Of a stretch of 64,000 nt of DNA, positions 11,416 through 36,925 are shown piece after piece. Origin of the DNA: [Clostridium] saccharolyticum WM1. Its GTDB lineage: Bacteria; Bacillota; Clostridia; Lachnospirales; Lachnospiraceae. A model generated the notes under the pieces. The model was not told the origin of the DNA, made no database searches, and saw nothing but the letters and a program-made list of their open reading frames with translations. Where the stretch lies: NCBI RefSeq assembly GCF_000144625.1, contig NC_014376.1:3348001-3412000 (forward strand). The letters are read 5' to 3'. How positions within the stretch are numbered: the first letter of the stretch is position 1; each line of letters starts with the position of its first letter. Made by a program: the position numbers and the translations under genes.

Positions 11416-12197
11416 AAGTCAAGACCACCCGTAAAACGGGTGGCTTGTGAAAAGGGTATAACCCTTTGATACTAGGCCAGCGTCTCAAGGCGCTGGCTTT
11501 CACTTCGTTCAAGCCACTATGCTTTTGACTCGTCGCCGCCCCTGAAGGGGCCTTTGTAATACCGACTAACCCTTAAAAGGGTCCTCGTATTCTTTTACAC
11601 TTAGTTTATCTTGCATAATATCCGCTTTTTCCTGCTCCTGTATATATTTTCGGATGGTGTCCTCATTTAGTCCTACTGTGCTTACATAGTATCCTTCCGA
11701 CCAAAAATGTCGGTTTCCGAATTTATACTTTAGGTTTGCGTGGCGATCAAACATCATAAGGGCGGATTTGCCTTTTAGATAACCCATAAAACTGGATATG
11801 CTAATTTTAGGCGGAATACTTACCAGCATATGTACATGATCCGGCATAATATGGCCTTCTAAGATTTGGACCCCCTTATAATTACATAGTTGCTTCAAGA
11901 CTTCTCTCAAATCTTCCTTGTATTGATTATAAATTACTTTTCGTCTATACTTAGGTGTGAAGACGATATGATATTTGCACATCCATTTCGTGTGTGCCAG
12001 TTCATTGGCTTTCTTCGCCATTGAAATCACCTTTCCTTTCTCTAATAGTGGCTTGGACACCTCTATTATAATCGGAAAGGTGATTTTTTGTATAACTTAC
12101 TGACTCGCACCCGCATAGCGGGTGGTTTATTATTTCACATGGATTCATTTCTCTTAAAGAGAAACTCACCCATGTTCAACAGGCTAAAGCCCATAAC
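11416..12197 (-). mobile_element. IS200/IS605-family element, copy 1
   Basis: 782 bp, almost identical to the copy at 58722-59503 (I see one T/C difference, silent in tnpA). Its ends carry subterminal hairpins (ACCACCCG...CGGGTGG; CCCGC ATA GCGGG). There is no target duplication, as expected for Y1 transposases. It interrupts the AbrB-like gene. Ends are set where the two copies stop matching, so they may be off by 1-2 bases. Confidence 0.88.
11566..12021 (-). CDS. tnpA: IS200 transposase TnpA (Y1 HUH)
   Basis: 151 residues. Single-strand 'peel and paste' transposase. Seen: HUH motif DHVHM and the catalytic Tyr in IRKYIQEQE, with the typical opening KWMCKYHIVFTPKYRRK. ATG at 12021 with AAAGGTGAT is chosen over an upstream in-frame ATG at 12060 because it gives the normal family length. 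No TnpB partner, so the IS200 subgroup. Confidence 0.95.
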   Translation of the reverse strand: MAKKANELAHTKWMCKYHIVFTPKYRRKVIYNQYKEDLREVLKQLCNYKGVQILEGHIMPDHVHMLVSIPPKISISSFMGYLKGKSALMMFDRHANLKYKFGNRHFWSEGYYVSTVGLNEDTIRKYIQEQEKADIMQDKLSVKEYEDPFKG

Positions 12198-14012: not shown

Positions 14013-14057
14013 AGGGGCTGTTTTTTTATTGCCAAAATGCGAAAGGAGAAAGAAATC

Positions 14058-14399
14058 ATGCCTGATGTAGAAGTAAAAATCAATTCCATGTACCCGCCCG
14101 GAGCCAGCGGTGGCATCCGTGCCTACGCTTCGGCAACGGTGGACGGCTGCCTCGGTATCCGGGGCATCAAGGTAGTAGAGGGAGGCCGTGACGGTCTCTT
14201 TGTTTCCATGCCAAGCCGTAAGACAGAAAACGGCTACAAAGAAATCTGCTTCCCGGTGACCAAAGAGTTCCGGGAGCAGCTCCATAAGGCGGTGCTGGAC
14301 AGCTACCAGCAGGCCGTAGCCATGAATCAAGCCCCGGCGCAGCCGCAGGAAACCGCACCGGAGCAGTCCCAGCCGACCATGCAGATGGGCGGGATGTAA
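14058..14399 (+). CDS. SpoVG-like protein
   Basis: 113 residues. The SpoVG core is recognisable (EVKINSMYPPG, IKVVEGGRDGLFVSMPSRK, a YKEICFPVTKEFREQL segment), followed by a Gln/Pro-rich tail ending in MQMGGM. SpoVG proteins bind DNA or RNA and modulate gene expression. ATG at 14058 with AAAGGAG site. It stands directly before the Tad-pilus genes and may regulate them; that is inference from position. Confidence 0.8.
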   Translation: MPDVEVKINSMYPPGASGGIRAYASATVDGCLGIRGIKVVEGGRDGLFVSMPSRKTENGYKEICFPVTKEFREQLHKAVLDSYQQAVAMNQAPAQPQETAPEQSQPTMQMGGM

Positions 14400-14441
14400 G
14401 AATTCTATCAACCCAACAAAAAAATTTGGAGGTAAAACACC

Positions 14442-14672
14442 ATGAAAAAAATGATCAACAAGGTAACTCATAAGGCCAATATGCTGGCAATTAAGGCAAA
14501 AATGGCGCTCACCAACAACCACGCCGAGGGCTTCGTGGATACCGCCATCAAGATTTTAATGGCGGTTGTCATCGGTGCTTTGGTGCTGGCCGGATTGTAT
14601 ATGCTCTTTGACAAAACCGTGCTGCCTACCCTCGTACAGCGCATTAAGGATATGTTCAACTATGCCGGATAG
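14442..14672 (+). CDS. Flp/Tad-type major prepilin (ICE-encoded)
   Basis: 76 residues: a basic 30-residue leader ending NNHAEG, then a hydrophobic helix FVDTAIKILMAVVIGALVLA and a short tail. Predicted prepilin cleavage is after Gly30, leaving Phe as residue 1. Glu at +5, usual in Flp pilins, is absent (Ala). A prepilin peptidase gene overlaps its 3' end by 11 bases. Length and organisation match Flp pilins (50-80 residues). Expected product: small pilin in the membrane, assembled outward by CpaF/TadB/TadC. Confidence 0.75.
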   Translation: MKKMINKVTHKANMLAIKAKMALTNNHAEGFVDTAIKILMAVVIGALVLAGLYMLFDKTVLPTLVQRIKDMFNYAG

Positions 14673-15081
14673 GCTGGCCGCTGTGCAGGCGGTCATTTTT
14701 ATTGCCCTGCTGTGTGCGGCATCGGTAACGGACTTGACAAAACGTATTGTTCCAAACTGGCTCTGTCTTGGAATCGCAGGTGTTTCCATAATCGGATTTA
14801 CACCGGTCAAGCTGCTGGGAATCCTGATTGCTCTGCCGTTCCTACTGGCCGCCGTGTTCTTTGGCGGCATGGGCGGCGGCGACATCAAGCTGATGGCAGC
14901 CTGTGGCCTTGTGCTGGGGCTGACGAAAGGACTGCTTGCGGCAATGGCCGGACTCAGCCTGCTGCTCATTTATGTGGGCATATACCGAATTGTGTGTAAG
15001 GTGCAAAGGCGGGAGGCAAAAAAAGCCTTCCCCCTTGCGCCTTTTTTATCGGCGGGATGTCTGCTCGCCTATTTCATTTAA
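14662..15081 (+). CDS. Prepilin peptidase, A24 family (TadV/CpaA)
   Basis: 139 residues, an integral membrane aspartic protease with about four helices. Seen: catalytic Asp24 in SVTDLTKRIVPN and Asp74 in the GGGDIK box (the second Asp of the GxGD class). It lacks the N-terminal methylase domain, as TadV/CpaA do. ATG at 14662 overlaps the pilin gene. Expected to cut the leaders of the pilin at 14442 and the pseudopilins at 19908 and 20300. Confidence 0.9.
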   Translation: MPDRLAAVQAVIFIALLCAASVTDLTKRIVPNWLCLGIAGVSIIGFTPVKLLGILIALPFLLAAVFFGGMGGGDIKLMAACGLVLGLTKGLLAAMAGLSLLLIYVGIYRIVCKVQRREAKKAFPLAPFLSAGCLLAYFI

Positions 15082-15095
15082 GGAGGACTTAAGCT

Positions 15096-15929
15096 ATGAG
15101 CTTTTTCAAGAATAGAACGGTCATCGGCGTGATCTGCATTGTGCTGTCGCTTCTGATCTGCTTTGCAATCACGCCGCTGTTCAACCAAAGCATCACCCAG
15201 AAAACCGAGATTGTAAGGGTGACCAAGCCCATTAAAATCGGAGAAACCATCACCAAGGACATGGTGCAGACCGTGGAGGTGGGCGGCTACAATCTGCCGG
15301 AGGATGTGGTCAGGCATACGGACACCGTCATCGGTAAATTTGCCTCCGCCGACTTAGCACCGGGAGATTACATCATCGCCTCCAAAATCGCCGATGCCCC
15401 TGCTGCGGAAAACGCCTACCTCTATAACCTGACCGGAGAAAAACAGGCCATTTCCGTATCGGTCAAGAGCTTTGCCGCAGGGCTGTCCGGTAAGCTGATC
15501 TCAGGGGATATCGTGTCCATAGTTGCCCCGGATTACAAAAAGCAGGGCGTGACGGTCATCCCGCCTGAGCTGCAGTATGTGGAGGTCATCGCCGTCACCG
15601 CAGACAGCGGCTACGATGCCAACCAGCAGAACGGGAAATCTAATCCGTCTTCGGAGCAGGCAGATGCGGATGAAAAGGAGCTGCCTGCCACCGTCACTTT
15701 GCTGGTCACACCGGAGCAGAGCAAAATCCTTGCCGAACTGGAAGCGAACGGTACCCTCCATGTGTCCCTTGTTTACCGTGGCAGCAAGGAAAATGCTGCG
15801 AAGTTTACTGAGGCACAGGACTCGGTGCTTTCCAAGCTGTATCCGGAGGAAATGGAATCTCAGGAAAGCGAGGATGCCAGTCAGCCGGAAACGCCTGCAA
15901 AACCACCGGTGGAAAGCGGGGCTGAGTAA
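15096..15929 (+). CDS. Flp pilus assembly protein CpaB/RcpC-like
   Basis: 277 residues. N-terminal transmembrane helix (TVIGVICIVLSLLICFAI), then an SAF domain (RVTKPIKIGETITKDMVQ..., LAPGDYIIASKI) and a second beta-rich RcpC-like region, ending in an acidic Pro-rich tail. In Gram-negative Tad systems CpaB helps the outer-membrane secretin; here, with no outer membrane, it may shape the wall-spanning channel. Follows the peptidase with AGGAGG spacing and abuts the CpaE-like gene. Confidence 0.88.
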   Translation: MSFFKNRTVIGVICIVLSLLICFAITPLFNQSITQKTEIVRVTKPIKIGETITKDMVQTVEVGGYNLPEDVVRHTDTVIGKFASADLAPGDYIIASKIADAPAAENAYLYNLTGEKQAISVSVKSFAAGLSGKLISGDIVSIVAPDYKKQGVTVIPPELQYVEVIAVTADSGYDANQQNGKSNPSSEQADADEKELPATVTLLVTPEQSKILAELEANGTLHVSLVYRGSKENAAKFTEAQDSVLSKLYPEEMESQESEDASQPETPAKPPVESGAE

Positions 15930-16745
15930 ATGCTGAACTTCAAAAAAGGCGGCCTGTTCAGCCGCAAGAACAATTCTGAGTTACAGGAGACAGAACCGGA
16001 TAAAGGCGTACAGGTACTGGCGGTTTGGGGCAGCCCCGGCTGCGGCAAAACCACGGTGGCGGTGAAGTTGGCGAAATATCTGGCAGACAGAAAAAAGAAT
16101 GTGGTACTGCTGCTCTGTGACTGCACCACACCAATGCTTCCCTGCATCTGTCCGCCCGGTGATTTGGAGGGAAATCATTCCCTCGGCAGTATTCTGGCCG
16201 CCAATTCTATCACCGAATCGCTGGTGAAAAACAACTGCAATACCCATAAGCGCATGAGTCATCTGGCGGTCATCGGACTACAAAAGGGCGAAAACGAAAA
16301 CTACTTCCCTCCAGTGGATGAAAAGCTGCTCCGGGAGCTGATCGAAGTGCTACGTGATATGGATAGTCACATCATCATCGACTGCGGCAGCGCCATCTAT
16401 TTTGACGAGCTGTCCACCATCGCCATTCTGGAGGCCGATGCGGTGCTGCGGCTCATAGGCTGCGATCTGAAATCGGTGAGTTATCTGTCCAGCCAGCAGG
16501 AATATCTGCGTATGGCAGGCTTTGACTTTGACAAACTGTACAAGGCGGTTAGCAATGTAAAATCCAACGAAGCCAGCCAGAACATGGAGCAGGTGCTGGG
16601 CAGCGCTGTGTTTACCCTTCCGCACTCCCCGGAGCTGGAGGCTCAAGTGCTGGCCGGGAATCTATTCGCAGATTTGTCCCTGAAAGACAGCCGGGGCTTC
16701 CGAAAAGAGATACAGAAAATCTCTGAGGAGGTGTTCGGCGTATGA
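15930..16745 (+). CDS. CpaE/TadZ-like P-loop ATPase
   Basis: 271 residues. Walker A WGSPGCGKTT (residues 33-42), then DCTTP as a deviant Walker A' region and IIDCGS as Walker B. The MinD/ParA superfamily normally has a signature Lys in KGGxGKT, which is not present here. In Tad systems TadZ/CpaE positions the pilus machine at the membrane. There is no N-terminal receiver domain, so it is a minimal form. Start codon follows the CpaB stop directly and its end overlaps cpaF (ATGA). Confidence 0.82.
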   Translation: MLNFKKGGLFSRKNNSELQETEPDKGVQVLAVWGSPGCGKTTVAVKLAKYLADRKKNVVLLLCDCTTPMLPCICPPGDLEGNHSLGSILAANSITESLVKNNCNTHKRMSHLAVIGLQKGENENYFPPVDEKLLRELIEVLRDMDSHIIIDCGSAIYFDELSTIAILEADAVLRLIGCDLKSVSYLSSQQEYLRMAGFDFDKLYKAVSNVKSNEASQNMEQVLGSAVFTLPHSPELEAQVLAGNLFADLSLKDSRGFRKEIQKISEEVFGV

Positions 16746-18094
16746 GCAGGCATAATCTGTTTTTTACTCCAGAGCAGGAAATCGGAGATTTTCACGGCGT
16801 GCTGCAAAAGGTGCAGGAATATATCGCCGGTCAGCACAGCGAGCTGCTGTCGGACGGCAACGCCGCCGAAGCTAAGGCCAACATCAAGAGGTACATCACC
16901 AAATTTGTGCAGGACAGCCGTGTGGCGGTCAAAGGCATGACACAGCAGCAGTTGGTGGATGCCCTGTATACGGAAATGGCCGAATACTCCTTTTTAACAA
17001 AATATATCTTTGCGGACGAAATCGAAGAAATCGACATCAACAGCTGGCGGGATATTGAAATCCAGTATGCCGGTGGGCGCTGCGAAAAGCTACTGGAGCA
17101 CTTTGACAGCCCCGAACACTGCATCAACGTGCTGCGCCGGATGCTTCATGTGTCCGGTACGATTCTGGATGATCAGTCCCCGCTGGTGGTCGGCACCCTT
17201 GCGGAAAATATCCGGATTGCGGTGATGAAAAGCCCTATTGTGGATGCCGGTGTGGGTGCGGCGGCTTCCATTCGTATTGTGAATCCCAATCACATGGAAA
17301 AAGAGGATTTCATAGACGGAGGCACGGCTACCGCTGAAATGCTGGATTTGCTCTCGGAGTTCATCCGCTACGGCATTTCGGTGTGTATTGCGGGGGCTAC
17401 CAGCAGCGGTAAAACTACGGTGGCAGGCTGGCTTTTAACCACTATCCCTGACAACAAGCGAATCTTCACCATTGAAAACGGCAGCCGGGAGCTTTCCCTC
17501 ATCCGGGAAAAGGACGGCAGGGTCACCAATTCCGTGGTGCATACCCTCACTCGCAACAGCGAGAACGAGCTGTATCGTATCGAGCAGATCGACCTTGTGG
17601 ACATCTCCCTGCGCTTCAACCCCGACATTATCGTGGTCGGCGAAATGCGTGGTGCGGAGGCCAACGCCGCACAGGAGGTAGCACGAACCGGCGTGGCGGT
17701 GGTCACCACCATCCACTCCAACTCCTGCGAATCCACCTACCGCCGCATGGTTTCCCTGTGCAAACGAGCCGTGGATATGTCGGACGAAACCCTCATGGGC
17801 TATGTGACCGAGGCCTATCCCATTGTCGTGTTCTGCAAGCAGCTGGAAAACAAACAGCGCAGGCTGATGGAAATCATGGAATGTGAAATTTTGCCGGATA
17901 ACAGCCGGAATTACCGCACCCTGTTCCGGTATGAGATTACCGAAAACCGTTATGAGAACAATCAGTTTTTCATTACCGGACACCATGTAACGGTGAATCC
18001 CATCTCCGACAGCCTGTGCAAACGGCTGCTGGAAAACGGGATGCCGCAGGAACGTATCAACGCCATCAGGAAAGGAGGGCAAATATCCGTATGA
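16742..18094 (+). CDS. CpaF/TadA-type secretion ATPase
   Basis: 450 residues, hexameric cytoplasmic motor of the GspE/VirB11 superfamily. Seen: N-terminal domain, Walker A GATSSGKTT (about residue 218), Asp box RFNPDIIVVGEMRGAEA with Walker B, and the His box VVTTIHSNS. Sequence style is CpaF/TadA rather than VirB11. Overlaps the previous and the next genes by 4 bases. It drives assembly of the pilus encoded around it. Confidence 0.92.
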   Translation: MSRHNLFFTPEQEIGDFHGVLQKVQEYIAGQHSELLSDGNAAEAKANIKRYITKFVQDSRVAVKGMTQQQLVDALYTEMAEYSFLTKYIFADEIEEIDINSWRDIEIQYAGGRCEKLLEHFDSPEHCINVLRRMLHVSGTILDDQSPLVVGTLAENIRIAVMKSPIVDAGVGAAASIRIVNPNHMEKEDFIDGGTATAEMLDLLSEFIRYGISVCIAGATSSGKTTVAGWLLTTIPDNKRIFTIENGSRELSLIREKDGRVTNSVVHTLTRNSENELYRIEQIDLVDISLRFNPDIIVVGEMRGAEANAAQEVARTGVAVVTTIHSNSCESTYRRMVSLCKRAVDMSDETLMGYVTEAYPIVVFCKQLENKQRRLMEIMECEILPDNSRNYRTLFRYEITENRYENNQFFITGHHVTVNPISDSLCKRLLENGMPQERINAIRKGGQISV

Positions 18095-19020
18095 CAACCA
18101 TTCAACTTTTGGCCTGTGCCGGAATGATTACAGGCTTTTTTCTATTGCTCGGCCTAAAGCCGATGGAATTCACCGATGGGCTGTTTTCCTTTCTCACCAG
18201 AGAAAAGAAATCCATTAGAGATGAAATCAAGGCGGCACAGCGCCACCAAAAGCCGGGATTTTTGAAGCGGCAAATCCAGATGGCGCAGGAGGTGCTGGCC
18301 ATGACCGGCAGGAGCAGCCGCTTTTCTTTGATTTGTGTCTGCTCCCTGCTACTGTTTGCCATCGGTGCCGCTATCGCCATTGTGATGGGCAACTTTTTTC
18401 TGGCTCCGGTGATGGCTGTGGGCTTTATGATGCTGCCCTTTTGGTATGTGCAGCTTACCGCCAGCCATTTCAAAAAAGATATTGCCGCCGAGCTGGAAAC
18501 GGCGCTCTCCATCGTAACCACAGCCTACCTGAGAAGTGAAAATATCCTCACGGCTGTGGAGGAAAATCTCCACTATTTAAACCCGCCGGTGCATCAGGTG
18601 TTCAAGGATTTTGTCCTGCGGGTGAAACTGATTGATCCGGATGTGCTGGAGGCCATCAAGGTGCTGCGCACCAAAATCGACAACGAGGTGTTCCGGGAAT
18701 GGTGCGATGCCCTGTGCGACTGCCAGCATGACCGCAGCCTGAAAGTCACACTGACTCCTATCGTCAGCAAGCTCAGTGATATGCGGATTGTCAACGGCGA
18801 GCTGGAATACCTTGTGTTTGAACCCCGCAAGGAATTTATTATCATGGTTATCTTTGTAATCGGCAACATTCCGCTGATGTATCTCCTCAATAAAAGCTGG
18901 TACGATACGCTGATGCATACTCCACTGGGGCAAATCATTCTGGCCATCAGCGCCGCCCTGATTTTTATCTCTACGGCCTGCGTGATACGGCTCACCAAGC
19001 CCATTGAGTACAGGAGGTGA
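18091..19020 (+). CDS. TadB-like pilus platform protein
   Basis: 309 residues with an N-terminal helix, a helix pair in the middle (FSLICVCSLLLFAIGAAIAIV) and two C-terminal helices around a cytoplasmic T2SSF-like domain. Position between CpaF and TadC homologues supports the call. ATG at 18091 overlaps the cpaF stop; earlier in-frame starts lie inside cpaF without a site. Confidence 0.85.
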   Translation: MTTIQLLACAGMITGFFLLLGLKPMEFTDGLFSFLTREKKSIRDEIKAAQRHQKPGFLKRQIQMAQEVLAMTGRSSRFSLICVCSLLLFAIGAAIAIVMGNFFLAPVMAVGFMMLPFWYVQLTASHFKKDIAAELETALSIVTTAYLRSENILTAVEENLHYLNPPVHQVFKDFVLRVKLIDPDVLEAIKVLRTKIDNEVFREWCDALCDCQHDRSLKVTLTPIVSKLSDMRIVNGELEYLVFEPRKEFIIMVIFVIGNIPLMYLLNKSWYDTLMHTPLGQIILAISAALIFISTACVIRLTKPIEYRR

Positions 19021-19025
19021 TGGTG

Positions 19026-19895
19026 ATGGGATTACTGTTTTTATTCGGAGTCACCTTAGCGGCTGGGCTGTTCTTTATTCTTTTGGATCTGCTGCGTCTG
19101 CCGTACCTCAGCACTGCCAAGGCCATGCTGAACACCACAAGGTCGGAGAAAAAAGCGGCAAGGGGCTTGGAAGCCTACCTCATGACTTGGGCGGTAAAGC
19201 TCGCAAGGCTCATCCGCATGGACGAATACCGCAGACATCAGCTGAAAAATGTGCTGAAAGCCACCGGCATGAACATGGAGCCGGAGGTCTATCAGGCGTA
19301 TGCGCTGGTGAAATCCGGCGTGATTCTGCTGCTGGCGATTCCGGCAGGGTTTATCTTTCCTTTGCTGGTGCCGGTGGTGGTGTTCCTTGGGGTCATGGTG
19401 TATTTCAAAGAAACTAAAAAGGCAGACGAAAAGCTGTCCGCCAAGCGAGCTTCCGTGGAAAAGGAGCTGCCCCGCTTTGTTGCCAACATCGAACAGGAGC
19501 TGAAAGCCTCCCGTGATGTGCTGGCCATCATAGAGAACTACAAGAAAAATGCCGGGGAAGCTTTTGCCAGTGAGCTGACCATGCTGGCAGCGGATATGCG
19601 TTCCTCCAGCTACGAGGCCGCCCTTACCCGGTTTGAGGCAAGACTCAATTCGCCCATGCTATCGGATGTGGTGAGAGGCCTCATCGGTGTGCTGCGTGGA
19701 GATGACAGCACGGTGTATTTTCAGATGCTGGCACATGACTTCAAGCAGCTGGAACTGCAGAAGCTCAAGGGTGAAGCACAGAAAATACCGCCCAAAATCC
19801 GTGTGTTTTCCTTCCTCATGCTGATGTGCTTTCTCTTTACCTATCTGGCCATCATTGCCTATGAGATCATCAAGTCCCTCGGTGGGATGTTTTAG
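19026..19895 (+). CDS. TadC-like pilus platform protein
   Basis: About 289 residues. Hydrophobic segments at the N-terminus, at about residues 100-125 (ILLLAIPAGFIFPLLVPVVV), and at the C-terminus flank a helical cytoplasmic domain of the T2SSF class (VEKELPRFVANIEQELKASR). ATG at 19026 has AGGAGG 8 bases upstream; in-frame GTG/ATG at 19017-19023 overlap that site. Forms the inner-membrane platform with TadB. Confidence 0.85.
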   Translation: MGLLFLFGVTLAAGLFFILLDLLRLPYLSTAKAMLNTTRSEKKAARGLEAYLMTWAVKLARLIRMDEYRRHQLKNVLKATGMNMEPEVYQAYALVKSGVILLLAIPAGFIFPLLVPVVVFLGVMVYFKETKKADEKLSAKRASVEKELPRFVANIEQELKASRDVLAIIENYKKNAGEAFASELTMLAADMRSSSYEAALTRFEARLNSPMLSDVVRGLIGVLRGDDSTVYFQMLAHDFKQLELQKLKGEAQKIPPKIRVFSFLMLMCFLFTYLAIIAYEIIKSLGGMF

Positions 19896-19907
19896 GGAGG
19901 GGTGAGC

Positions 19908-20303
19908 ATGAAGAAAATCTTAAAATCCAAACATGGTGAGGGCTACATTGATGTATGTGTCCTTGTCCTTTGCGCCATGCTGGTGATTGCGCTGGCTGTG
20001 CAGGTGCTGCCGGTGTTTATAGCAAAGAATCAGCTGGACACCTATGCTACCGAGCTGTGCCGGGAAGCGGAAATCAGCGGCAGGGTGGGCAGTGAAACCA
20101 GCCGCCGTGCTGCGGTTCTCACCGAGCAGACCGGGTTGAGTCCCCGGATTTCATGGTCAAAGACCGGCAATATCCAGCTCAATCAGGAAGTTACTGTGAC
20201 ACTGACCTTGGACAAGAATATTGGGCTGTTCGGCGGGTTCGGTTCGTTCCCTATCACCCTGCGCTCGGAGGCCTCCGGGAAAAGTGAGGTGTACCACAAA
20301 TGA
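19908..20303 (+). CDS. TadE-like pseudopilin (DUF4320-like)
   Basis: 131 residues. Short basic leader ending HGEG, then YIDVCVLVLCAMLVIALAVQVL as the pilin-like helix, then a beta-rich domain (VTVTLTLDKNIGLFGGFGSFP). Predicted cleavage after Gly12 with Tyr at +1, parallel to the pilin (EGF) and to the next protein (NGF). Start at ATG 19908 with GGGAGGGG. Known only as a conserved ICE protein; minor-pilin role is inferred. Confidence 0.75.
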   Translation: MKKILKSKHGEGYIDVCVLVLCAMLVIALAVQVLPVFIAKNQLDTYATELCREAEISGRVGSETSRRAAVLTEQTGLSPRISWSKTGNIQLNQEVTVTLTLDKNIGLFGGFGSFPITLRSEASGKSEVYHK

Positions 20304-20860
20304 CCAAACTAAGACACATTCTTAGGGATAAGGCCGGGAACGGCTTCCCTTTGGTGGTAGCCATTACGCTGGTGCTTGTGATTATCCTGTGCGGCATAAT
20401 GGAGTTTTTTCGGCTGAATATCATTGCCGCCGGTGTAAAAGAAGCCTTGGAGGGTGCCATTACTGTAACAGTCAACGACAACTATGCCGATGTGTATCAC
20501 GGTGTGCGAGAGGGCTACAGTGGCGGCTACCAACCGGACGGCTCCTCCTTTTCCTACAGCGTAAAGACCGGCGATATTTACAGTTACATGGATGGTGTCC
20601 TCGGTACAAAAAATGTCGGAGGCAGCCATGTGAAATATGCCGGGGAGGCTTTGGAGTACAAACTCTCCGGCTTGGATGTTACCATCCGAAATGCGCCGCT
20701 GGCTCCGTCCTTCCCTAAAAACGCACAGCGCTTTGAAGCAGATGCGGTAATATGGCTGGAGGTACCGGTCTATTTCGGCGGCAAGGAGCTGGCTCCCATG
20801 AAGATCAAGCTCAAGGTTCAGGCGGGATACACTGAAGTATTCGGTGAAAGTGACGTTTGA
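20300..20860 (+). CDS. TadE/TadG-like pseudopilin
   Basis: 186 residues. Leader ends AGNG, then FPLVVAITLVLVIILCGIMEFF, then an extracellular-type domain rich in Tyr, Ser and Gly. Predicted prepilin cut after Gly15. Overlaps the previous gene by 4 bases. Likely a minor pilin of the same machine. Confidence 0.72.
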   Translation: MTKLRHILRDKAGNGFPLVVAITLVLVIILCGIMEFFRLNIIAAGVKEALEGAITVTVNDNYADVYHGVREGYSGGYQPDGSSFSYSVKTGDIYSYMDGVLGTKNVGGSHVKYAGEALEYKLSGLDVTIRNAPLAPSFPKNAQRFEADAVIWLEVPVYFGGKELAPMKIKLKVQAGYTEVFGESDV

Positions 20861-20962
20861 CATGACTGTTCGGGAAATTGTCTGGACTTCCGAAAAAATA
20901 TATAGTATCGTAAGAAATGCAAAGAGGTAGCATTTTACACTTCTTCAAAGGAGGTTGTCTAT

Positions 20963-21481
20963 ATGAGTGAGAAAACAAAAAGGAGGCTCGCCATTGCGGG
21001 CGCTTCGGTGATTTGCATAGCGTTAGTCGTTGCCATCGGAATGCGGTTTGCCAAGGAACCCGCAAAGCCGGATGCTTCCTCGCAGGAGCCGGTCAGCACT
21101 TCGGATGTGGCTCCTGATATACAGAATAGCACAGAGAAAAAAGAGGTAGTGGTTTCTCCGCAGCCAACACCGGAGTCGAATACATCGGAAACACTGCCGT
21201 CCCAAACCGATCTGCCTGAGCAGAAGCTCCAGCTCGATCCGGTAAAGCCGGAAGCTCCTAAAAAGCCTGAACTGCCCAAGGATGCAGATACCACCAACCC
21301 ATCCAAGCCGCCGGAATATAAGGCAGAGGATACGGAAAAGAAGCCGACATCTTCAGAGAGTGTATCGCAAAGCAACGGCGGCCTGCCGGGCTTTGATAAC
21401 GTACCGGACGGCGGTGCCAATCAGGTGATTGAAGTTGATGGCGATGGTGATATTAACAAGCAGGTCGGAGAAATGGATTAA
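20963..21481 (+). CDS. Pro-rich membrane-anchored ICE protein (DUF6550-like)
   Basis: 172 residues. One N-terminal transmembrane helix (LAIAGASVICIALVVAIGM), then about 140 residues of low-complexity Pro/Ser/Glu-rich sequence (KPEAPKKPELPKD and similar) ending in GDGDINKQVGEMD. Such a tail can span the cell wall. Separate transcriptional start possible: 100 bases of spacer and a good AAAGGAGG site. Terminator follows. Function unknown; position suggests a stalk or anchor for the pilus. Confidence 0.7.
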   Translation: MSEKTKRRLAIAGASVICIALVVAIGMRFAKEPAKPDASSQEPVSTSDVAPDIQNSTEKKEVVVSPQPTPESNTSETLPSQTDLPEQKLQLDPVKPEAPKKPELPKDADTTNPSKPPEYKAEDTEKKPTSSESVSQSNGGLPGFDNVPDGGANQVIEVDGDGDINKQVGEMD

Positions 21482-21504
21482 TAAAAAATATATTAGTAGC
21501 AAGG

Positions 21505-21531
21505 AAACACGGTTTAACACCGTGTTTTTTT
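21505..21531 (+). terminator. Rho-independent terminator
   Basis: AAACACGGT/ACCGTGTTT stem with a T-run, between the Pro-rich protein and the Trp-rich secreted protein. Read-through or partial termination would set their ratio. Confidence 0.85.
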
Positions 21532-21550
21532 GTTGCGGAAAGGATAATTT

Positions 21551-23287
21551 ATGAAGCGATTTATGGGAGTGCTGCTCTCAATGGCTATCCTGTTCGCTGC
21601 TGTTTTTCCTATAAGTGCTTATGCCGATACGGGTGGCAGCGGCAACGTAGACGGCGGTGGCGGTGGCATGGGTGATGGTACCAGCACCAACTCGTGGACT
21701 CCAGGCAATGAGGGTGTGCGGGTGACAGTGGTTCGGGCAAGTGATCATGCAGTGGTTACGGCTTCTTTTGATTTTACCAACAAAGCACCGAATTCATCTA
21801 TATACAACTTTGGAAAGGTCAGCAAGCTACAATATAACGGTGGTAGATCGTTGTCGCCTGTCAAGGGTGGATATATTGCAATTAAACCAGCGCAAACCAT
21901 GCCGAAGATCATCAGCACCAATGGAAGCAACAATATCGAAGCTATTAAAAAATATTTCTGTTCCGAATATGTGGTCAAGCGTATCGCAGAGATTACCGGT
22001 ATGAGCTACGATGTGCTGATTGGCGGCGAGTATAAAATATTGCTGGAACCTATCGCCTATTACAAATTTGAGGGTGTGATGATTGCTACCACAGCCACGG
22101 AAGCCGCCATGTATGACGAACGGGTTGGGGGTCTCCTGCGCAGAAGAATGGTATCCCTTTCCCATAAAAATCTGCCCCTTGCCATGTTCTTGGAGGTGGC
22201 CGATCTCGGCTATCCGGCATGGTCAGGAAGCCGAAACAAGGCTGCCTCCAATTCGGAAATCAAGGATGCCCTCGGCCTTGGCATCGTGCGGTTTAAGGAC
22301 ATGCCTGCAGAGCCGCCCAATGTTTCCGTGTATGACTACGAATACCGGGTCAACACCGAGGTCATCACGGCGGTAACTGTCAGCGGAGGTCAGAGCGATC
22401 CGGATCATCCGGTGTCCGCCACCTTCTATGTGAATGGCAGAAGCTATCGGGTCAGCAACATCTACTATCCCGATGGCGACAGCCAGCTGGCGTGGATACG
22501 CTGGACAGCGCCAAGCACCCCACAGCAGATGACCATCACGGTTACTGTGTCTGGAGGCGGCAGCTCCAGCAAGGCAACAATTAATGTAAATATTGTTGAC
22601 CTTGATAAGAATCCGCCGCCCAATCCTGTGGCGAATGACCGCAATGACAGCTTTAGAAAGTCCGCTGTTCCCAACAATCCGCAGCAGACCTCTGCCAACT
22701 GGACAGTGTGGCGTCCTTGGTGGCAGGAGCATTGGGTCTGGCACAGCAAGTGGGTATGGGTTGGAAGCAGCGAAAATGGCCATTGGGTTGATAGAGGAAA
22801 ATGGGTAGACGAGGGATGGTGGGAGTTTGACCTCGACCGGTATCAGGCCAGCCTTTCAGCAAGCATGACAATCCAGCCCGATAACAAAAGCCCCACCGCC
22901 AGCGGAAAAACCATGAAGTCGGGCTATGGCATCAATCAGACGGTTTCCGCCAGAGTTAGCACCAATCAATCCTCGGCGGTAACCGGGGCGCAGACTGCGG
23001 TGACCTATTTCCCGGAATTCGGGTATCAAACCTACTGGCGGCTGCTGGAGCGTATGAGTTCAGGCTACAGTGCCCGGTTTGAATTTCAGAAAAACTCCTA
23101 CAGCACCTATAACCGCAGGACGCATTTTTCACCCATCTGGTTCCCTGACGGAAGCTATACCCCGTACACATGGCTGATAGACAGCTGGACACCCACCGGA
23201 ATGCTTTCCATGAACCTTACGGACAACGTCACCATCCGGGATAATTTGTGGAGCGACTGGCACATTGCGCCGCAGAAACCCCATTAA
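21551..23287 (+). CDS. Secreted Trp-rich, Gly-rich ICE protein, candidate pilus-associated adhesin
   Basis: 578 residues. Sec signal peptide (MKRFMGVLLSMAILFAAVFPISAYA, cut after AYA), Gly-rich region, a globular domain (residues about 50-260), an Ig-like or beta-sandwich region (VTAVTVSGGQ...IRWTAPSTPQQMTITVTVSGG), and a segment at about residues 392-430 dense in Trp (WRPWWQEHWVWHSKWVWVG... and WVDEGWWEFDLDRY). No sortase motif. No enzyme motif recognised. The place between pilus and type IV secretion genes and the signal peptide suggest a surface-exposed adhesin or tip protein, by inference. Confidence 0.7.
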   Translation: MKRFMGVLLSMAILFAAVFPISAYADTGGSGNVDGGGGGMGDGTSTNSWTPGNEGVRVTVVRASDHAVVTASFDFTNKAPNSSIYNFGKVSKLQYNGGRSLSPVKGGYIAIKPAQTMPKIISTNGSNNIEAIKKYFCSEYVVKRIAEITGMSYDVLIGGEYKILLEPIAYYKFEGVMIATTATEAAMYDERVGGLLRRRMVSLSHKNLPLAMFLEVADLGYPAWSGSRNKAASNSEIKDALGLGIVRFKDMPAEPPNVSVYDYEYRVNTEVITAVTVSGGQSDPDHPVSATFYVNGRSYRVSNIYYPDGDSQLAWIRWTAPSTPQQMTITVTVSGGGSSSKATINVNIVDLDKNPPPNPVANDRNDSFRKSAVPNNPQQTSANWTVWRPWWQEHWVWHSKWVWVGSSENGHWVDRGKWVDEGWWEFDLDRYQASLSASMTIQPDNKSPTASGKTMKSGYGINQTVSARVSTNQSSAVTGAQTAVTYFPEFGYQTYWRLLERMSSGYSARFEFQKNSYSTYNRRTHFSPIWFPDGSYTPYTWLIDSWTPTGMLSMNLTDNVTIRDNLWSDWHIAPQKPH

Positions 23288-23296
23288 AAACAGAGA

Positions 23297-23339
23297 AATA
23301 GCAAGGCCGCAGCGAATCAAAAACTGCGGCCTTGCTATT
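23297..23339 (+). terminator. Long perfect hairpin (processing or attenuation site)
   Basis: AATAGCAAGGCCGCAG and its exact complement (16 bp) with an 11-base loop. There is no strong T-tract after it, so it may be an RNA-stabilising or partial terminator rather than a full stop before the VirB2-like gene. Confidence 0.7.
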
Positions 23340-23369
23340 CTCAACCCTATAAAGAAAGGTGGAAAATCC

Positions 23370-23708
23370 ATGAAATCAAAACGAATTGCGATGCTCCTGT
23401 GCATGGTTCTGATGCTGTGCCTGATGTTCAGCACAACGGCCTATGCAGCAGGAAGCGGCGATGTGGCCGGAGCGATTGAGGGAACGTGGTCAACCGCGTC
23501 CCAACAAATCAAAACCGTGGTCAATAAGGTAGTGTTCCCTGCCATCGACTTGATTCTGGCGGTGTTTTTCTTTGCCAAGTTAGGCACATGTTATTTTGAA
23601 TATCGCAAACATGGTCAGATGGAATGGGCGGCTCCAGCGATCCTGTTTGCTTGCCTTGTGTTCACGCTGACGGCTCCCTTATATATCTGGACTATCCTCG
23701 GAATGTGA
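23370..23708 (+). CDS. VirB2/TrbC-like small membrane protein (DUF3852-like)
   Basis: 112 residues: Sec signal (ending TAYAA), then two hydrophobic segments (VVFPAIDLILAVFFFAKLG and APAILFACLVFTLTAPLYIW) joined by a charged loop. This is the plan of VirB2/TrbC pilins of type IV secretion. ATG at 23370 has GAAAGGTGG upstream; earlier codons would run through the hairpin. Pilin assignment is inference from topology and from the TrbL/PrgI/VirB4-like genes that follow. Confidence 0.7.
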   Translation: MKSKRIAMLLCMVLMLCLMFSTTAYAAGSGDVAGAIEGTWSTASQQIKTVVNKVVFPAIDLILAVFFFAKLGTCYFEYRKHGQMEWAAPAILFACLVFTLTAPLYIWTILGM

Positions 23709-23768: not shown

Positions 23769-24443
23769 TTATTTCTTCTGCCAAATAAGTGAATAGCGCC
23801 AGAATAATTTGCGATGCACTATTGCACCTGGAAGATGTTGTGCAACGAAAGAGCGAATCTCATGAATGGTCATGTAACTGTCGTGCTCTCCATGTTTCCT
23901 CCATACAGCAGTTGTGTGAGGATCGTCCTTATGCAGACTACCGTTCTTGATTAAGTTCATAATTACATTAGGCAATGCGGCAAATCCCCAAACAAAATGG
24001 TCGGCTATCGAATTGGCTTTTGCTAGATCGAGCAAAATTAGTTTACCACCAGGTCGCAGTTTATCCTTTGCAAACTCCAGTAGCCAGTCGTATGGAAGAT
24101 GATGTGCAGTGGCTGTTGAGATTATGATGTCAAACGACGATGTAGCATAATTCATATCCAGAATATTTCCGCAGATATATTCGATGTTATCAGCCGCGTT
24201 ATTGGAGCGGGCATATTCTATCATCTTGTCTGCGAGATCAACAGCAATTACTTTCTTCGCGTTTTTAGACAATAAGGCAGACAGTTCTCCTTTTCCACAT
24301 CCGATATCAAGACAAGTTCCTACACCAGCAGGTACATGTTGTAACAGATAAGGAAAGTAGCAATTATTGTGATTCCACTTTGGGTCGTCGCCTAATTCGG
24401 CAATTTCATTAAAATCTGATCTAACAATATCATAATTTTCCAT
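23769..24443 (-). CDS. SAM-dependent class I methyltransferase (cargo)
   Basis: 224 residues. Seen: motif I CLDIGCGKGE, acidic end of strand 2 (AVDLA), motif II FDIIISTATAHHLP and LRPGGKLILLDLAK, i.e. a complete Rossmann SAM-binding fold. It lies on the opposite strand to the conjugation genes, in more AT-rich sequence, so it is cargo slotted into the operon. Weak ribosome site. Substrate unknown; rRNA or small-molecule methylation are possible. Confidence 0.85.
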   Translation of the reverse strand: MENYDIVRSDFNEIAELGDDPKWNHNNCYFPYLLQHVPAGVGTCLDIGCGKGELSALLSKNAKKVIAVDLADKMIEYARSNNAADNIEYICGNILDMNYATSSFDIIISTATAHHLPYDWLLEFAKDKLRPGGKLILLDLAKANSIADHFVWGFAALPNVIMNLIKNGSLHKDDPHTTAVWRKHGEHDSYMTIHEIRSFVAQHLPGAIVHRKLFWRYSLIWQKK

Positions 24444-24557
24444 TATTAAATTACCCCGATAAATTCCTGTTTATCTCTATCATACCATACGCTGTTAAGT
24501 TTTTCCACCACCCTTATGCAAGTATTGACTGGCAGGTGCTGGGGATGTAGCGGAGGT

Positions 24558-24728
24558 TTACTCCTCCGACTTATCAGTCAGGCACAGTGGCGTATCGTCT
24601 GCATCCATATATGTTTCCTCGCACTCCTGCTGGACGGTACGCATCATACAAGCAGCTTGAGAAACGAGCTTCTCGGCATTAGTTACTGCGTTAAACATTT
24701 TATAATAAAGTTTTTTGTAATCTGCCAC
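24558..24728 (-). CDS. Small conserved mobile-element protein
   Basis: 56 residues starting at GTG (VADYKKLYYKMFNAVTNAE...) with AAAGGAGG 7 bases upstream. Helical, with two Cys. Related small proteins occur in phages and ICEs of Clostridia. A longer open frame to 24944 has no site and overlaps a decayed gene end, so it is not used. Confidence 0.65.
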   Translation of the reverse strand: MADYKKLYYKMFNAVTNAEKLVSQAACMMRTVQQECEETYMDADDTPLCLTDKSEE

Positions 24729-24864
24729 ACAAGTACCTCCTTTGAAATTATTCCGGCGGCTTCCGTTGTGTGGTATTAAAGCTCTGAAAAAACGGATTGT
24801 CAAGTCATAAATCAGAGAAGAAAAACTAGCCCGGTGCTTAGAAGATAGCAAAGCACAGGAGGTT

Positions 24865-24990
24865 TTAATGCCCCCTGTGCTTTTCCTTGCGTTTTTCCTG
24901 ACGTAAAGCAAACTGGCGCTCTTTTTCAGCTTTTTGTTGCTCACGTGTCTTGCGTTCCAGTTTTCCCTGCTCCTGTTGAAGTTTAAACTT
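24865..24990 (-). pseudogene. C-terminal remnant of a Lys/Arg/Gln-rich coiled-coil protein
   Basis: About 41 codons ending in TAA on the minus strand encode a highly charged helix (KFKLQQEQGKLERKT, RQEKRKEKHRGH). There is no start codon and an in-frame stop lies just upstream. The region 24729-25077 otherwise holds no gene. Confidence 0.55.
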
Positions 24991-25077
24991 TATTTTAGCA
25001 CTCTAACACACAAAAAGCAAGTTATGTATAACGGTTTTGGTGAAACCATTGACTGTCAGGGACTAGGGATGTAGTCA

Positions 25078-25689
25078 TTAGTCCTTATAAATATCATCTT
25101 CAATACGCTTATATGTGTAATAATTAGGCATAACCCATTTGATCGAAATGAGGATAATCATGGAAACAACACATTCTATTCCACTAAGACCCATAAATAT
25201 CATAGAAATGTTTTTGAAGATGTTCCCCCACTGAAAGGATTCCTCGCAAACTGACAAGAGCTTTTCGGGTGCACTGAAAAGCAAGGCAAATGAGGATAGT
25301 GCAACATAGTCAAAGCTACTCAAATAGGCTGTATGTGTTGCACCAAAGACCGTGTGCATTCTATCTGTTGCTCTGAATGGTTTATTGTAGAAAATTTTAC
25401 TTTCAAGTTTTTTTAAAACTGAGTAAGCAATGAATGAAATAAAGCTGGTGGAGGTACTAATCCAAAACAAGAAAATCGCACAGTACCATACCACTAATGC
25501 AACATCTGAAATGAGTTTGACATCAGCCAACACCAAATATTTAACAAATATATCTTTCAAAGGGAAAAAAATCGATGTTGCAAGCAATAGTGTAAATAGA
25601 CAGTTTAAAAAAGAAACAACTCTCGATATAGTATGATCATTTCTATCGGAAATCCCCTTAACCACAGCAGACATAAACGAATTTAGCAT
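25078..25689 (-). CDS. Cargo membrane protein, unknown
   Basis: 203 residues, four to five hydrophobic segments (FLNCLFTLLLATSIFFPL, ALVVWYCAIFLFWISTSTSF, YVALSSFALLFSA, MIFMGLSGIECVVSMIILISI). AT-rich, opposite strand to the backbone. AAGGGG before the ATG. No family recognised; it could be a phage-exclusion or immunity-type membrane protein, but nothing in the sequence proves it. Confidence 0.65.
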   Translation of the reverse strand: MLNSFMSAVVKGISDRNDHTISRVVSFLNCLFTLLLATSIFFPLKDIFVKYLVLADVKLISDVALVVWYCAIFLFWISTSTSFISFIAYSVLKKLESKIFYNKPFRATDRMHTVFGATHTAYLSSFDYVALSSFALLFSAPEKLLSVCEESFQWGNIFKNISMIFMGLSGIECVVSMIILISIKWVMPNYYTYKRIEDDIYKD

Positions 25690-25790: not shown

Positions 25791-26693
25791 ATGTTCATAT
25801 GGGATTTTGTCGCCGACACTGTTCTCGGTCAGATTGTGGATTGGATCTACGGTCAGATCGTGGGCTTCCTCGGCGACTTTTTTATGCAGATGGGAAACAT
25901 GGGTGCCGACCTGTTCGAAATGAGCTGGGTACAATCCATTGTGCTATTCTTCTCCTATCTGGCGTGGGCGCTATACGGTGTCGGCCTTGTGGTGGCAGCC
26001 TTTGAATGCGGAATTGAATCACAGTCCGGCAGAGGCAGCATCAAGGATACTGCCCTCAACGCTATCAAGGGCTTCATGGCTGTGGGGCTGTTCACTACGG
26101 TGCCGGTGGAGCTGTATAAGCTGTCGGTGTCTTTGCAGGGCAGCTTTACTGCCGGGATTACCGGCCTTGGAACCGACTTCGGAACGGTAGCCCAAGGTAT
26201 CATTGCATCGTTGCAGGATGCGGGAAATCTGGAGCAGGCCATGACCAGCAATGTATTCGGCGGCTTGAACACAATCACCAGCCCTATCATGATGATTTTT
26301 ATTCTCATCCTTATGGGCTATGCGGTCATTAAGGTGTTCTTTGCCAATCTCAAGAGGGGCGGCATCCTCCTCATCCAGATTGCGGTGGGGAGCCTGTATA
26401 TGTTCAGCGTTCCCCGTGGCTATATTGACGGCTTCGTTTCATGGTGCAAGCAGGTGATTGGGCTGTGCCTTACGGCATTCCTGCAGGCAACGGTGCTGAT
26501 TGCCGGACTCATGGTTGTAAAAGACCATGCCCTGCTGGGGCTTGGCTTGATGCTGGCAGCTGGTGAAATTCCTCGCATTGCCGGACAGTTCGGACTGGAT
26601 ACCAGCACAAAAGCCAACCTCATGAGTACCGTGTATGCGGCGCAAACTGCGGTGAATATGACCAAAACGGTGGTACAGGCGGTGGCAAAATGA
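25791..26693 (+). CDS. TrbL/VirB6-like conjugation channel protein
   Basis: 300 residues, about six transmembrane segments with an extracellular Gly-rich loop, the pattern of TrbL/VirB6 inner-membrane subunits of Gram-positive type IV secretion systems. AAAGGAGTG site. Overlaps the next gene by 4 bases. Interrupted from the VirB2-like gene only by the reverse-strand cargo at 23.8-25.7 kb. Confidence 0.82.
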   Translation: MFIWDFVADTVLGQIVDWIYGQIVGFLGDFFMQMGNMGADLFEMSWVQSIVLFFSYLAWALYGVGLVVAAFECGIESQSGRGSIKDTALNAIKGFMAVGLFTTVPVELYKLSVSLQGSFTAGITGLGTDFGTVAQGIIASLQDAGNLEQAMTSNVFGGLNTITSPIMMIFILILMGYAVIKVFFANLKRGGILLIQIAVGSLYMFSVPRGYIDGFVSWCKQVIGLCLTAFLQATVLIAGLMVVKDHALLGLGLMLAAGEIPRIAGQFGLDTSTKANLMSTVYAAQTAVNMTKTVVQAVAK

Positions 26694-27268: not shown

Positions 27269-27547
27269 ATGTATATCTACCCCGATCACTTAAGGGCAAA
27301 AGCAACCTTGTGGCTGTGGCAGCTGCGGGATATCGGCATCATCGGCGTCGCGCTGCTTCTCTCTGTGCTTGCGGTTTCACAGCTGGGATTTGTGCTACCC
27401 ATCGTGCTGACCGCCGTCTATGCCTTTTTAACGATCCGATTTGAGGACACAAGCATTCTGGATTTTCTCCGATATGCCTGTGCTTTTTTTATCACCAAGC
27501 AGCAATTCTATGAATGGAGGTATACACCCAATGCGCAGGAACGATAA
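27269..27547 (+). CDS. PrgI/VirB3-like membrane protein
   Basis: 92 residues with two adjacent transmembrane helices near residues 20-55 and a basic tail, as in PrgI (VirB3-like) proteins that always precede VirB4 in Gram-positive systems. GGGAGG before the ATG. Overlaps the following gene by 17 bases. Confidence 0.8.
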   Translation: MYIYPDHLRAKATLWLWQLRDIGIIGVALLLSVLAVSQLGFVLPIVLTAVYAFLTIRFEDTSILDFLRYACAFFITKQQFYEWRYTPNAQER

Positions 27548-28121: not shown

Positions 28122-28140
28122 AGATAATAATTTGATAGAG

Positions 28141-28177
28141 GAAAAGCTGGTCTCCTGCAATAGGAAACCAGCTTTTC
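28141..28177. terminator. Bidirectional terminator at a cargo slot
   Basis: GAAAAGCTGGT/ACCAGCTTTTC stem between the conjugation operon and the reverse-strand TrmO-like gene. Confidence 0.75.
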
Positions 28178-28194
28178 ACTATAATCAGTTGTTC

Positions 28195-28671: not shown

Positions 28672-28783
28672 AAATAAATCTCCTATTCAGTTTATTTACG
28701 GCGCCGTTATATTCAGTATATCAATGTGTTTTTATACTACAACCCCTTTTTTGAATTATTTCTAATGAAAGGATAAATCTCAT

Positions 28784-30613: not shown

Positions 30614-30631
30614 TGGGAGGTGAAAGAAAAA

Positions 30632-31666: not shown

Positions 31667-31692
31667 ATTTGTGTGAATGTAAGGAGGAAACC

Positions 31693-35446: not shown

Positions 35447-35554
35447 TATGCATAATTTCTTAATGATTTCTTTAGAGTAGGATGATATAATATTTCTAAA
35501 CAAACGCAATGTTGTTTGCGGATAAATAAGAATTTAACAGGGGTAATTTATATA

Positions 35555-35998: not shown

Positions 35999-36058
35999 TT
36001 CAAAGATATAGTAAATTTTGTTTAGCAAAGATGATATAATAAAAACGAAGGGGAAAAG

Positions 36059-36481: not shown

Positions 36482-36530
36482 ACCTCGACTTATTAGGAGA
36501 GTATAAGAAACTCTCATTGGAGGTGGTATT

Positions 36531-36880: not shown

Positions 36881-36925
36881 ACGGTTCTTAATGAACGTAT
36901 TCAAGGGCAAAAGGATAATTCCAAT

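Follow-up and report, generated by a model that had tools for sequence, protein, structure and literature searches.

Why should a conjugative element of a Gram-positive bacterium carry a pilus assembly operon immediately in front of its type IV secretion system (T4SS)? The question is raised by a stretch of 64,000 nucleotides, hereafter the window, from [Clostridium] saccharolyticum WM1 (contig NC_014376.1, positions 3,348,001 to 3,412,000), in which a block of genes for a Tad-type pilus adjoins a gene for a VirB2-like protein. A preliminary description of the window, made from the sequence alone, had proposed that the element brings its own attachment pilus to unite cells for transfer in the gut. 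From gene content, comparison with relatives and phylogeny we infer that the block probably encodes a monoderm Tad-type pilus which forms part of the element's transfer apparatus and serves mating contact.

The Tad-type gene block and the transfer genes that follow it

The Tad-type pilus operon extends over window positions 14442-23287 on the plus strand. It is compact and co-directional: eight of its ten intergenic gaps measure between -11 and +14 bases (with ATG starts assumed at 14662 and 18091), while the two wider ones precede the DUF6550 gene (102 bases) and the gene for a tryptophan-rich protein of 578 aa, termed Trp578 in the following (69 bases). The first gene encodes a DUF6133 prepilin of 76 aa (14442-14672; Pfam PF19629, 8.1e-32, and relatives), the stop of which is overlapped by the gene for a TadV-type prepilin peptidase (14662-15081, ATG 14662 assumed; Pfam Peptidase_A24, 1.8e-12). 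These are followed by CpaB/RcpC with an SAF domain (15096-15929; Pfam RcpC 3.7e-17 and SAF 1.8e-6), a CpaE/TadZ-like P-loop ATPase (15930-16745; Pfam AAA_31 2e-6, syntenic in relatives) and the motor ATPase CpaF/TadA (16742-18094), the latter identified by Pfam T2SSE (4.1e-22), a match to CpaF in the PDB (6e-21) and its position in a tree; its GATSSGKTT stretch is presumably the Walker A motif. Next come a TadB-like (18091-19020, ATG 18091 assumed) and a TadC-like (19017-19895) membrane platform protein, a TadE-like pseudopilin of family DUF4320 (19902-20303; Pfam PF14208, 5.6e-38) with a putatively prepilin-like N-terminus, GEG|YIDV, and a second TadE/G-like pseudopilin without a Pfam family that is syntenic in relatives (20300-20860). 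The operon closes with a proline-rich DUF6550 protein, whose hydrophobic N-terminal segment makes it a possible anchor (20963-21481; Pfam PF20187, 3.7e-27), and with Trp578 (21551-23287).

Open reading frames, Pfam families and relatives agree in that all genes named in the preliminary description are present and point in one direction. The range given there, 14058-23708, ends correctly with the VirB2-like gene, while its start falls within a SpoVG-family gene that is the upstream neighbour of the pilin gene (14037-14399, plus strand; Pfam PF04026, 6e-24). SpoVG homologues, as detected by tblastn, also adjoin the pilin in two further elements of the same genome, here designated B and C. The hallmarks of a Tad system are represented by the CpaF/TadA ATPase, the A24 prepilin peptidase and CpaB/RcpC. 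The platform proteins are less evident from Pfam, since T2SSF matches TadC only below the cut-off (0.0089; 16.4 bits vs. 25.2) and TadB not at all. They are therefore identified by their position and by comparison with relatives, and further by the name 'secretion protein F' that the TadC homologue bears in three plasmid records. No secretin family was found by Pfam among the proteins of the block, and none is expected in a monoderm; as judged from its genes, the block is a monoderm and not a diderm Tad-type system. The genes and Pfam families thus bear out the view of a nearly complete Tad machine without secretin inside a conjugative element.

The characterization of the pilin as Flp-like could not be upheld. 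Flp pilins are marked by a Glu-Tyr (Flp) motif early in the mature protein, with glutamate at position +5. The protein from the window has a leader of 30 residues with EG at its end; its mature part starts with FVDTA (YIDTA in many relatives), and it is likely cleaved at ...AEG|FVDTAIK to leave a mature part of about 46 aa. Mature pilins of this kind have aspartate at +3 and alanine or glycine at +5, and Pfam yielded no match to the Flp family up to an E-value of 0.1 and DUF6133 instead. As the characteristic glutamate is missing, we speak of Tad-type assembly of a pilin from family DUF6133 rather than of an Flp pilin. Trp578 matched no family in Pfam or NCBIfam. It has a signal-peptide-like N-terminus, and structure models and fold searches indicated a conserved N-terminal domain as well as an Ig-like domain at residues 252-350, the Ig match being generic. 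These predicted domains would be compatible with a tip or wall-spanning part, for which Trp578 is a candidate, and prove nothing in this respect.

The gene for the VirB2-like pilin (DUF3852; 23370-23708, plus strand, ATG 23370 assumed) begins 82 bases past the Tad block and is recognized by Pfam PF12963 (1.1e-46), the TrbC/VirB2 model remaining at 25.9 bits against a cut-off of 27.9. According to the preliminary description VirB2, VirB6, PrgI and VirB4 follow the block directly. This applies to VirB2; the genes for VirB6, VirB3 and VirB4 come beyond 2 kb of reversed genes, an inserted-looking stretch (23769-25689) with a reversed methyltransferase gene and two unknown genes. All further transfer genes lie on the plus strand. 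VirB6 (TrbL_5, 25791-26693; Pfam PF19511, 4.6e-154) is separated by a DUF7768 gene from VirB3/PrgI (27269-27547; Pfam TraL 0.0041, below cut-off). VirB4 appears as two genes (27441-30613), the first read as an N-terminal part (27441-28121, true start probably further in), which has syntenic homologues and no convincing Pfam family, and an ATPase part (28784-30613) matching NCBIfam VirB4 Mbov_0397 (2e-87; 294 bits, cut-off 590) and Pfam AAA_10 and P-loop_TraG. A reversed gene, TrmO-like by reading, lies between them (28195-28671), and the same two VirB4 parts occur in many relatives, often with intervening sequence. An M23 peptidoglycan hydrolase (32203-33294; Pfam Peptidase_M23, 2e-33) may have a VirB1-like role. 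A MobP3 relaxase with Sel1 repeats (38065-40863; NCBIfam MobP3 387.5 bits, cut-off 150; Pfam MobL 3e-27) and a VirD4 coupling protein of the CD1115 family (42585-44387; NCBIfam 272 bits, cut-off 250; Pfam T4SS-DNA_transf 2e-47) complete the set. Relaxase, VirD4 and VirB4 on one chromosomal segment of a single-contig genome of 4.66 Mb are among the hallmarks of an integrative and conjugative element (ICE).

Linkage and joint divergence of Tad and T4SS genes

If the block belonged to the transfer machinery, how regularly would the two be found together? A scan for VirB6 covering one genome per species in 84,980 species returned 193 relatives, of which the best 80 loci (73-99% identical) were kept. 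Tad core genes are located upstream of VirB6 in 61 of these 80 loci, in 59 cases within the fetched locus and in two (L120, L127) in a wider fetch, where they lie 10-19 kb from VirB6 on the same strand. In three loci (L114, L115, L116) DUF6550 or Trp578 is present where the available sequence stops. Four show no Tad core genes (L093 and L095 with a sortase module, L063, and L117, the last not judgeable), and contig ends make twelve unsuitable for judgement (L049, L052, L055, L058, L075, L077, L089, L110, L112, L122, L125, L126). The order of the Tad genes is, by plain count, identical in 57 of 59 relatives read; in L104 and L123 frames starting at locus bases 1 and 2 make the order indeterminable.

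The count of 80 loci covers relatives at least 73% identical; a class-level sample reaches further but is small. It comprised 391 genomes, drawn separately and partly overlapping with the first set (G179 is the An44 genome of L095). Here, a DUF4320 gene lies upstream of TrbL_5, on the same strand and at a distance of 4-15 kb, in 14 of 21 full-length TrbL_5 loci, two of which stem from the genome of the window. Among the other seven, five carry sortase/SpaA genes in this slot, one shows DUF6550 and Trp578 at a contig end and one is not judgeable. Approached from the other side, 34 of 45 DUF4320 loci above cut-off share their contig with T4SS genes. Of these, 16 belong to the window type (G235 by VirB2 alone) and eight to the type of element C, nine are others that are mostly Tn1549-like and one is a remnant (G170). 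Six DUF4320 loci are limited by contig ends (G275, G203:C17, G406, G425, G201, G227), and two, G225:C29 and G438, were left out as they had not been fetched. The remaining three (G194, G158, G348) are without T4SS genes in 18-60 kb; they have the weakest DUF4320 scores among the fetched loci (38-57 bits), and some Tad loci of this sort may simply be chromosomal. A sample drawn at the level of the order yielded a patchy distribution, with DUF4320 in 12 and TrbL_5 in 6 of 146 genomes.

Within the genome of the window itself, element B has its Tad and T4SS genes arranged as in the window, the proteins being 34-79% identical and DUF7768 without match. In element C the proteins of the Tad block are 34-61% identical, compared with only 28% for VirB4 and 26% for VirD4. 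Correlation of distance matrices for window-type elements (Mantel tests; near-copies thinned, 33-53 rows) gave r values of 0.91 for VirB4-TadC, 0.82 for TrbL-TadB, 0.81 for TrbL-TadC and 0.80 for TrbL-Trp578, in comparison with 0.86 for TrbL-VirB4, and none of 2000 permutations was as high for any pair. These results show shared descent of Tad and T4SS genes, which permutation does not separate from host relatedness. CpaF proteins of the window type, thinned to 20 rows, form one clade (100 in the Shimodaira-Hasegawa-like approximate likelihood ratio test, SH-aLRT). Ratios of nonsynonymous to synonymous substitution rates (dN/dS) of 0.05-0.35, determined for ten Tad-block genes, the pilin being outside the set, against three relatives (TadV and DUF6550 without match in one of them, whose dS is near saturation), point to purifying selection on the genes of the block; values for Trp578 are 0.12-0.16.

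An accidental insertion of the block, for which the preliminary description had suggested looking at its absence from related elements, is extremely improbable in the light of these data. The region does accept insertions, as evident from the reversed genes at 23769-25689 and 28195-28671 and from a low-GC stretch at 35.5-38 kb. The Tad block, in contrast, is common to 61 of 80 relatives, has the same order where this is readable and diverges with the T4SS, and we reject accidental insertion for this lineage.

The Tad module is not confined to a single kind of conjugative element and accompanies at least four transfer backbones: the window type, the C type, plasmids of the CD1115/pLS20 type and ICEs that we take to be Tn1549-like. 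In the C type, the Tad block is flanked on one side by TrbL_4 (VirB6) together with VirD4, on the opposite side by VirB4 (labels by Pfam), and all these genes share one strand. The Tn1549-like ICEs feature VirD4, VirB4 and a MobA/VirD2-type relaxase (Pfam). In one genome (G495; L211 with L245), a Tn1549-like ICE with its own Tad block adjoins, or perhaps lies within, a window-type element with another Tad block. Nine plasmid records matched CpaF at 1e-30, and the six among them with 35-49% identity are the sole six that match Trp578. Conjugation genes are found near the block in five of these six: three have annotated VirD4 of the CD1115 family and pLS20_p028, a fourth has PrgI and a large ATP-binding protein read as VirB4, and a fifth has DUF3852 and TrbL about 14 kb further on. 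In the sixth, unannotated plasmid a profile scan detected VirB4- and VirD4-like frames upstream of the block.

The co-occurrence of CpaF and Trp578 in these plasmid records also has a bearing on the idea that the Tad machine does not establish cell contact at all, and that it takes up or passes DNA in the manner of transformation pili or secretes Trp578 as an effector. Trp578 looks secreted and occurs in the same six plasmid records that hold such a CpaF (at least 35% identity), and a tad locus of Micrococcus luteus is needed for transformation (cited in an excerpt of PMC5696575). On the other hand, Pfam scans of the proteins of the block revealed no ComEC- or ComEA-like family, and Trp578 is conserved, with an Ig-like domain that is common in surface proteins, generic as this match is. 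We consider such a role highly doubtful.

Carriers of window-type elements span many host families. As some of them (Desulfosporosinus, Sedimentibacter and Gracilibacter) do not live in the gut, the gut proposed in the preliminary description is not supported as the general setting.

Slot exchange, motor class and the case for mating contact

What takes the place of the Tad block where it is missing? In G129, with a VirB6 54% identical to that of the window, the slot 5' of VirB2 contains a sortase, a CHAP protein and a thioester-domain protein of 1833 aa with 14 SpaA stretches. In G315 it is filled by a sortase and a SpaA protein of 1842 aa with the C-terminus LPQTGF, in G447 by a SpaA protein of 1739 aa that terminates in LPRTGY, the available piece lacking a sortase, and in G247 by a sortase and the apparent end of a surface protein. 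Pseudoflavonifractor An44 (L095) encodes a GramPos_pilinD1/SpaA protein and two sortases in this position, that is, a sortase-assembled pilus, and An85 has sortases that match by eye. No CpaF was found beside the T4SS in the sortase-type elements, and the genome of An44 lacks any CpaF match at 1e-3. A quick VirB6 tree with SH-aLRT support only requires four changes for the sortase state. The An44/An85 pair is nested in a clade (96) with four Tad carriers and G447 sits on a long branch within a clade (100) containing Tad carriers; the other three sortase loci form long branches that are not placed with confidence, and the tree does not tell which state came first. On this tree, the sortase state appears nested among Tad carriers once firmly and once probably.

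Sortase-anchored LPxTG wall adhesins are mating-contact factors described for Gram-positive systems in an excerpt of a 2025 review (PMC12857230). Such PrgB-type adhesins resemble the present case in the mating-contact role proposed here, and differ from a Tad pilus in being single wall-anchored proteins without assembly motor; in some relatives it is sortase modules that fill the Tad slot. A sortase pilus or adhesin in the Tad slot is the best hint of a shared role and suggests that both serve to grip cells during transfer.

Sortase adhesins in this slot could also serve colonisation, and the Tad pilus might accordingly be a passenger trait that lets the host adhere to surfaces or tissues, the fitter host then spreading the element. 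Tad loci are known colonisation factors, and plasmids of Cutibacterium acnes with tad and conjugation genes have been read in this sense in the excerpts available of two reports (PMC5696575; PMC3666418). We hold this to be unlikely for the window element, as the place of the Tad genes is fixed in the transfer operon and not with variable cargo, in C-type elements even between VirB6 and VirB4, and as they diverge with the T4SS and are kept in hosts of many families.

A different role would follow if CpaF were a VirB11-type ATPase. The best match of CpaF in the PDB is CpaF (78 bits, 6e-21), the best VirB11-like chain reaching 43 bits, and a tree of 32 T2SSE proteins places it apart from VirB11/TrbB (support 97/94). 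Its clade (98/96) contains Tad-type ATPases of a Thermoanaerobacterium and a Virgibacillus plasmid and also, separated by a long branch, the ATPase named 'VirB11' in a pLS20-type plasmid of Bacillus subtilis. CpaF as the VirB11 of the T4SS in the window is disfavoured in addition by the sortase-type elements, which have the same T4SS without an adjoining CpaF; the NCBIfam models described below do not separate the two.

The region around this 'VirB11' in the pLS20-type plasmid (L237, 11683-15348) deserves a closer look. The ATPase is followed by a protein of 267 aa that hhalign aligned to TadC (E 3e-4, probability 41%), one of 245 aa aligned to TadB (E 2e-3, probability 13%), one of 120 aa matching Pfam DUF4320 below cut-off (0.0058) and a pair of 47-aa proteins, identical to each other, that contain a hydrophobic stretch. 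A thioester-domain protein is encoded upstream of the ATPase region and VirD4 downstream. With each match weak and the order right, the pLS20 'virB11' region may be a reduced Tad module, a lead rather than a result. Plasmids of the pLS20/CD1115 type resemble the window element in having a T2SSE ATPase and two further proteins 5' of VirD4, beside a thioester-domain adhesin. They differ in that CpaB, CpaE and a prepilin peptidase are unannotated in the 25-kb stretch and the TadB/TadC-like matches are weak.

It is in this context that CpaF, TadB and TadC might be regarded as a VirB11-like energy module for the VirB2 pilus or channel, with the DUF6133 protein forming a short pseudopilus instead of a long fibre. 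Competence pseudopili are precedents for such a structure. The pLS20 homologue bears the name virB11, VirB2 is encoded just 82 bases downstream of the block, and the NCBIfam models for VirB11 and TadA score CpaF equally. Opposed to this are the occurrence of the same VirB2, VirB3, VirB4 and VirB6 without adjoining CpaF, the absence of a CpaF match from the An44 genome mentioned above, the separation of CpaF from VirB11/TrbB in the tree and the presence of a pilin and a prepilin peptidase belonging to the Tad block itself. An energy module of this kind thus appears rather improbable.

For a mating-contact pilus, the steps would be as follows. TadV would cut the DUF6133 pilin and the pseudopilins, CpaF together with TadB and TadC would extend and probably retract the filament, and its passage through the wall, or its capping, might be the task of CpaB, DUF6550 and Trp578. 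Once bound to a recipient, the filament would hold or pull the pair together, whereupon the VirB2/B3/B4/B6 channel and VirD4 would pass the relaxase-bound DNA. Pulling presupposes that CpaF powers both extension and retraction, as reported for Caulobacter (PMC11300603).

Several observations weigh against a mating-contact pilus as a fixed part of the transfer machinery. Much of the evidence would look alike for a colonisation pilus of benefit to the host. The sortase-bearing elements have kept their T4SS genes in the absence of Tad genes, and so has L063 from Clostridium porci, which has also retained Trp578; therefore, Tad is not strictly required. The genome of L063 has only distant CpaF matches (29% at best). 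L117 is without Tad in the 9.7 kb upstream, where the genes are host-like by reading, without a family search, and in L049 and L077 the contigs end 1.9 and 2.3 kb upstream of VirB2, with no gene of the Tad block up to there. The stretch in L049 contains what reads like a group II intron protein, and the genomes of L049 and L077 hold close CpaFs on other contigs. The Mantel r for TrbL-CpaF is only 0.55, a value that again none of 2000 permutations reached; many CpaF frames are cut at locus edges. Finally, the NCBIfam models for VirB11 and TadA tie on CpaF at 119.9 bits each, both far below cut-off.

As a separate observation, the upstream region of L063 encodes a reverse transcriptase of a group II intron (Pfam) and has frames that resemble recombinases.

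The surrounding element, known systems and implications

The remainder of the element contains a number of further features. An amidoligase (Amidoligase_2) and a gamma-glutamylcyclotransferase (GGACT) are encoded as a pair within the transfer operon (30620-32196), and likewise in element B, G021 and G107. The low-GC, inserted-looking stretch at 35516-37979 comprises genes for two GNAT acetyltransferases and a MerR regulator. A c-di-GMP-I riboswitch (54847-54933, plus strand) is situated 5' of a gene for a small sigma-70-like protein, and the minus strand contains riboswitches of the THF and ZTP classes (47941-48056 and 48123-48203). Two IS200-type Y1 transposases with equal Pfam score (11566-12060 and 58872-59366) are also encoded on the minus strand. 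Three serine recombinases are clustered 2.7-5.5 kb to the right of the window (G000, 3414722-3417527) and may belong to the element; element B has three tyrosine recombinases clustered beside VirD4 (G000, 3030470-3032914). A repeat of the 3' end of tRNA-Ser was found neither in the window nor in the 238 loci searched.

How does the arrangement compare with systems already described? The pili of R64 and PAPI-1, in which DNA transfer is served by type IV pili in Gram-negative bacteria, are not of the Tad type. Excerpts of the 2025 review present IncI R64 as a conjugative element with a type IV pilus besides its T4SS, presumably uniting cells as proposed here; it differs in its Gram-negative host and in boosting transfer in dilute liquid (PMC12857230). 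In the integrated element PAPI-1 of Pseudomonas aeruginosa, likewise Gram-negative, a pilus is essential for transfer, and VirB4 and VirD4 are its only clear T4SS homologues (PMC12857230). Thaumarchaeal integrative-conjugative elements possess TadC, pilins and a prepilin peptidase alongside VirB4 and VirD4, and differ in belonging to the Archaea and in that no relaxase candidates were detected, according to a portion of PMC6563490. A further likeness is offered by the linear plasmids of C. acnes, Gram-positive replicons with tadZ/A/B/C/E and VirB4-like transfer genes, for which a putative pilin was identified in the surface fraction by mass spectrometry (PMC5696575; PMC3666418). They differ in their actinobacterial host and in being read as carrying an adhesion factor on a possibly conjugative plasmid, and the excerpts of these two papers describe neither a recurrent linkage to T4SS families nor slot exchange. 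Elsewhere, excerpts mention an ATPase of a Listeria plasmid annotated as 'Flp pilus assembly' (PMC9484302) and a VirB11 homologue of pAW63 (PMC9673590), and a term search of PMC6907783 retrieved no pilus terms.

Among the titles and abstract beginnings listed by searches of an open-access library we found no description of a Tad pilus as part of clostridial conjugation, and Gram-positive conjugation systems are stated to encode no conjugative pili in the excerpt of the 2025 review (PMC12857230). A VirB2-like gene and a Tad block occur together in the window element. All parts belong to known or named families; what is new is their recurrent, co-inherited and exchangeable pairing with Gram-positive T4SSs. 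More tentatively, and as a possibility we would not yet favour, a dynamic Tad-type pilus could be a standard mating-contact organelle in a large share of the conjugative elements of Clostridia, able to be swapped for sortase pili or adhesins and present in reduced form in the 'VirB11' region of pLS20.

By position and descent, a pilus machine is tied to Gram-positive T4SSs across many Clostridia, and this provides leads to the function of DUF6133, DUF4320, DUF6550 and the Trp578 family. pLS20 in Bacillus subtilis offers a workable model for the question of the pilus. If the wider reading as a standard organelle is true, Gram-positive conjugation would have a conjugative pilus of its own, contrary to the textbook view.

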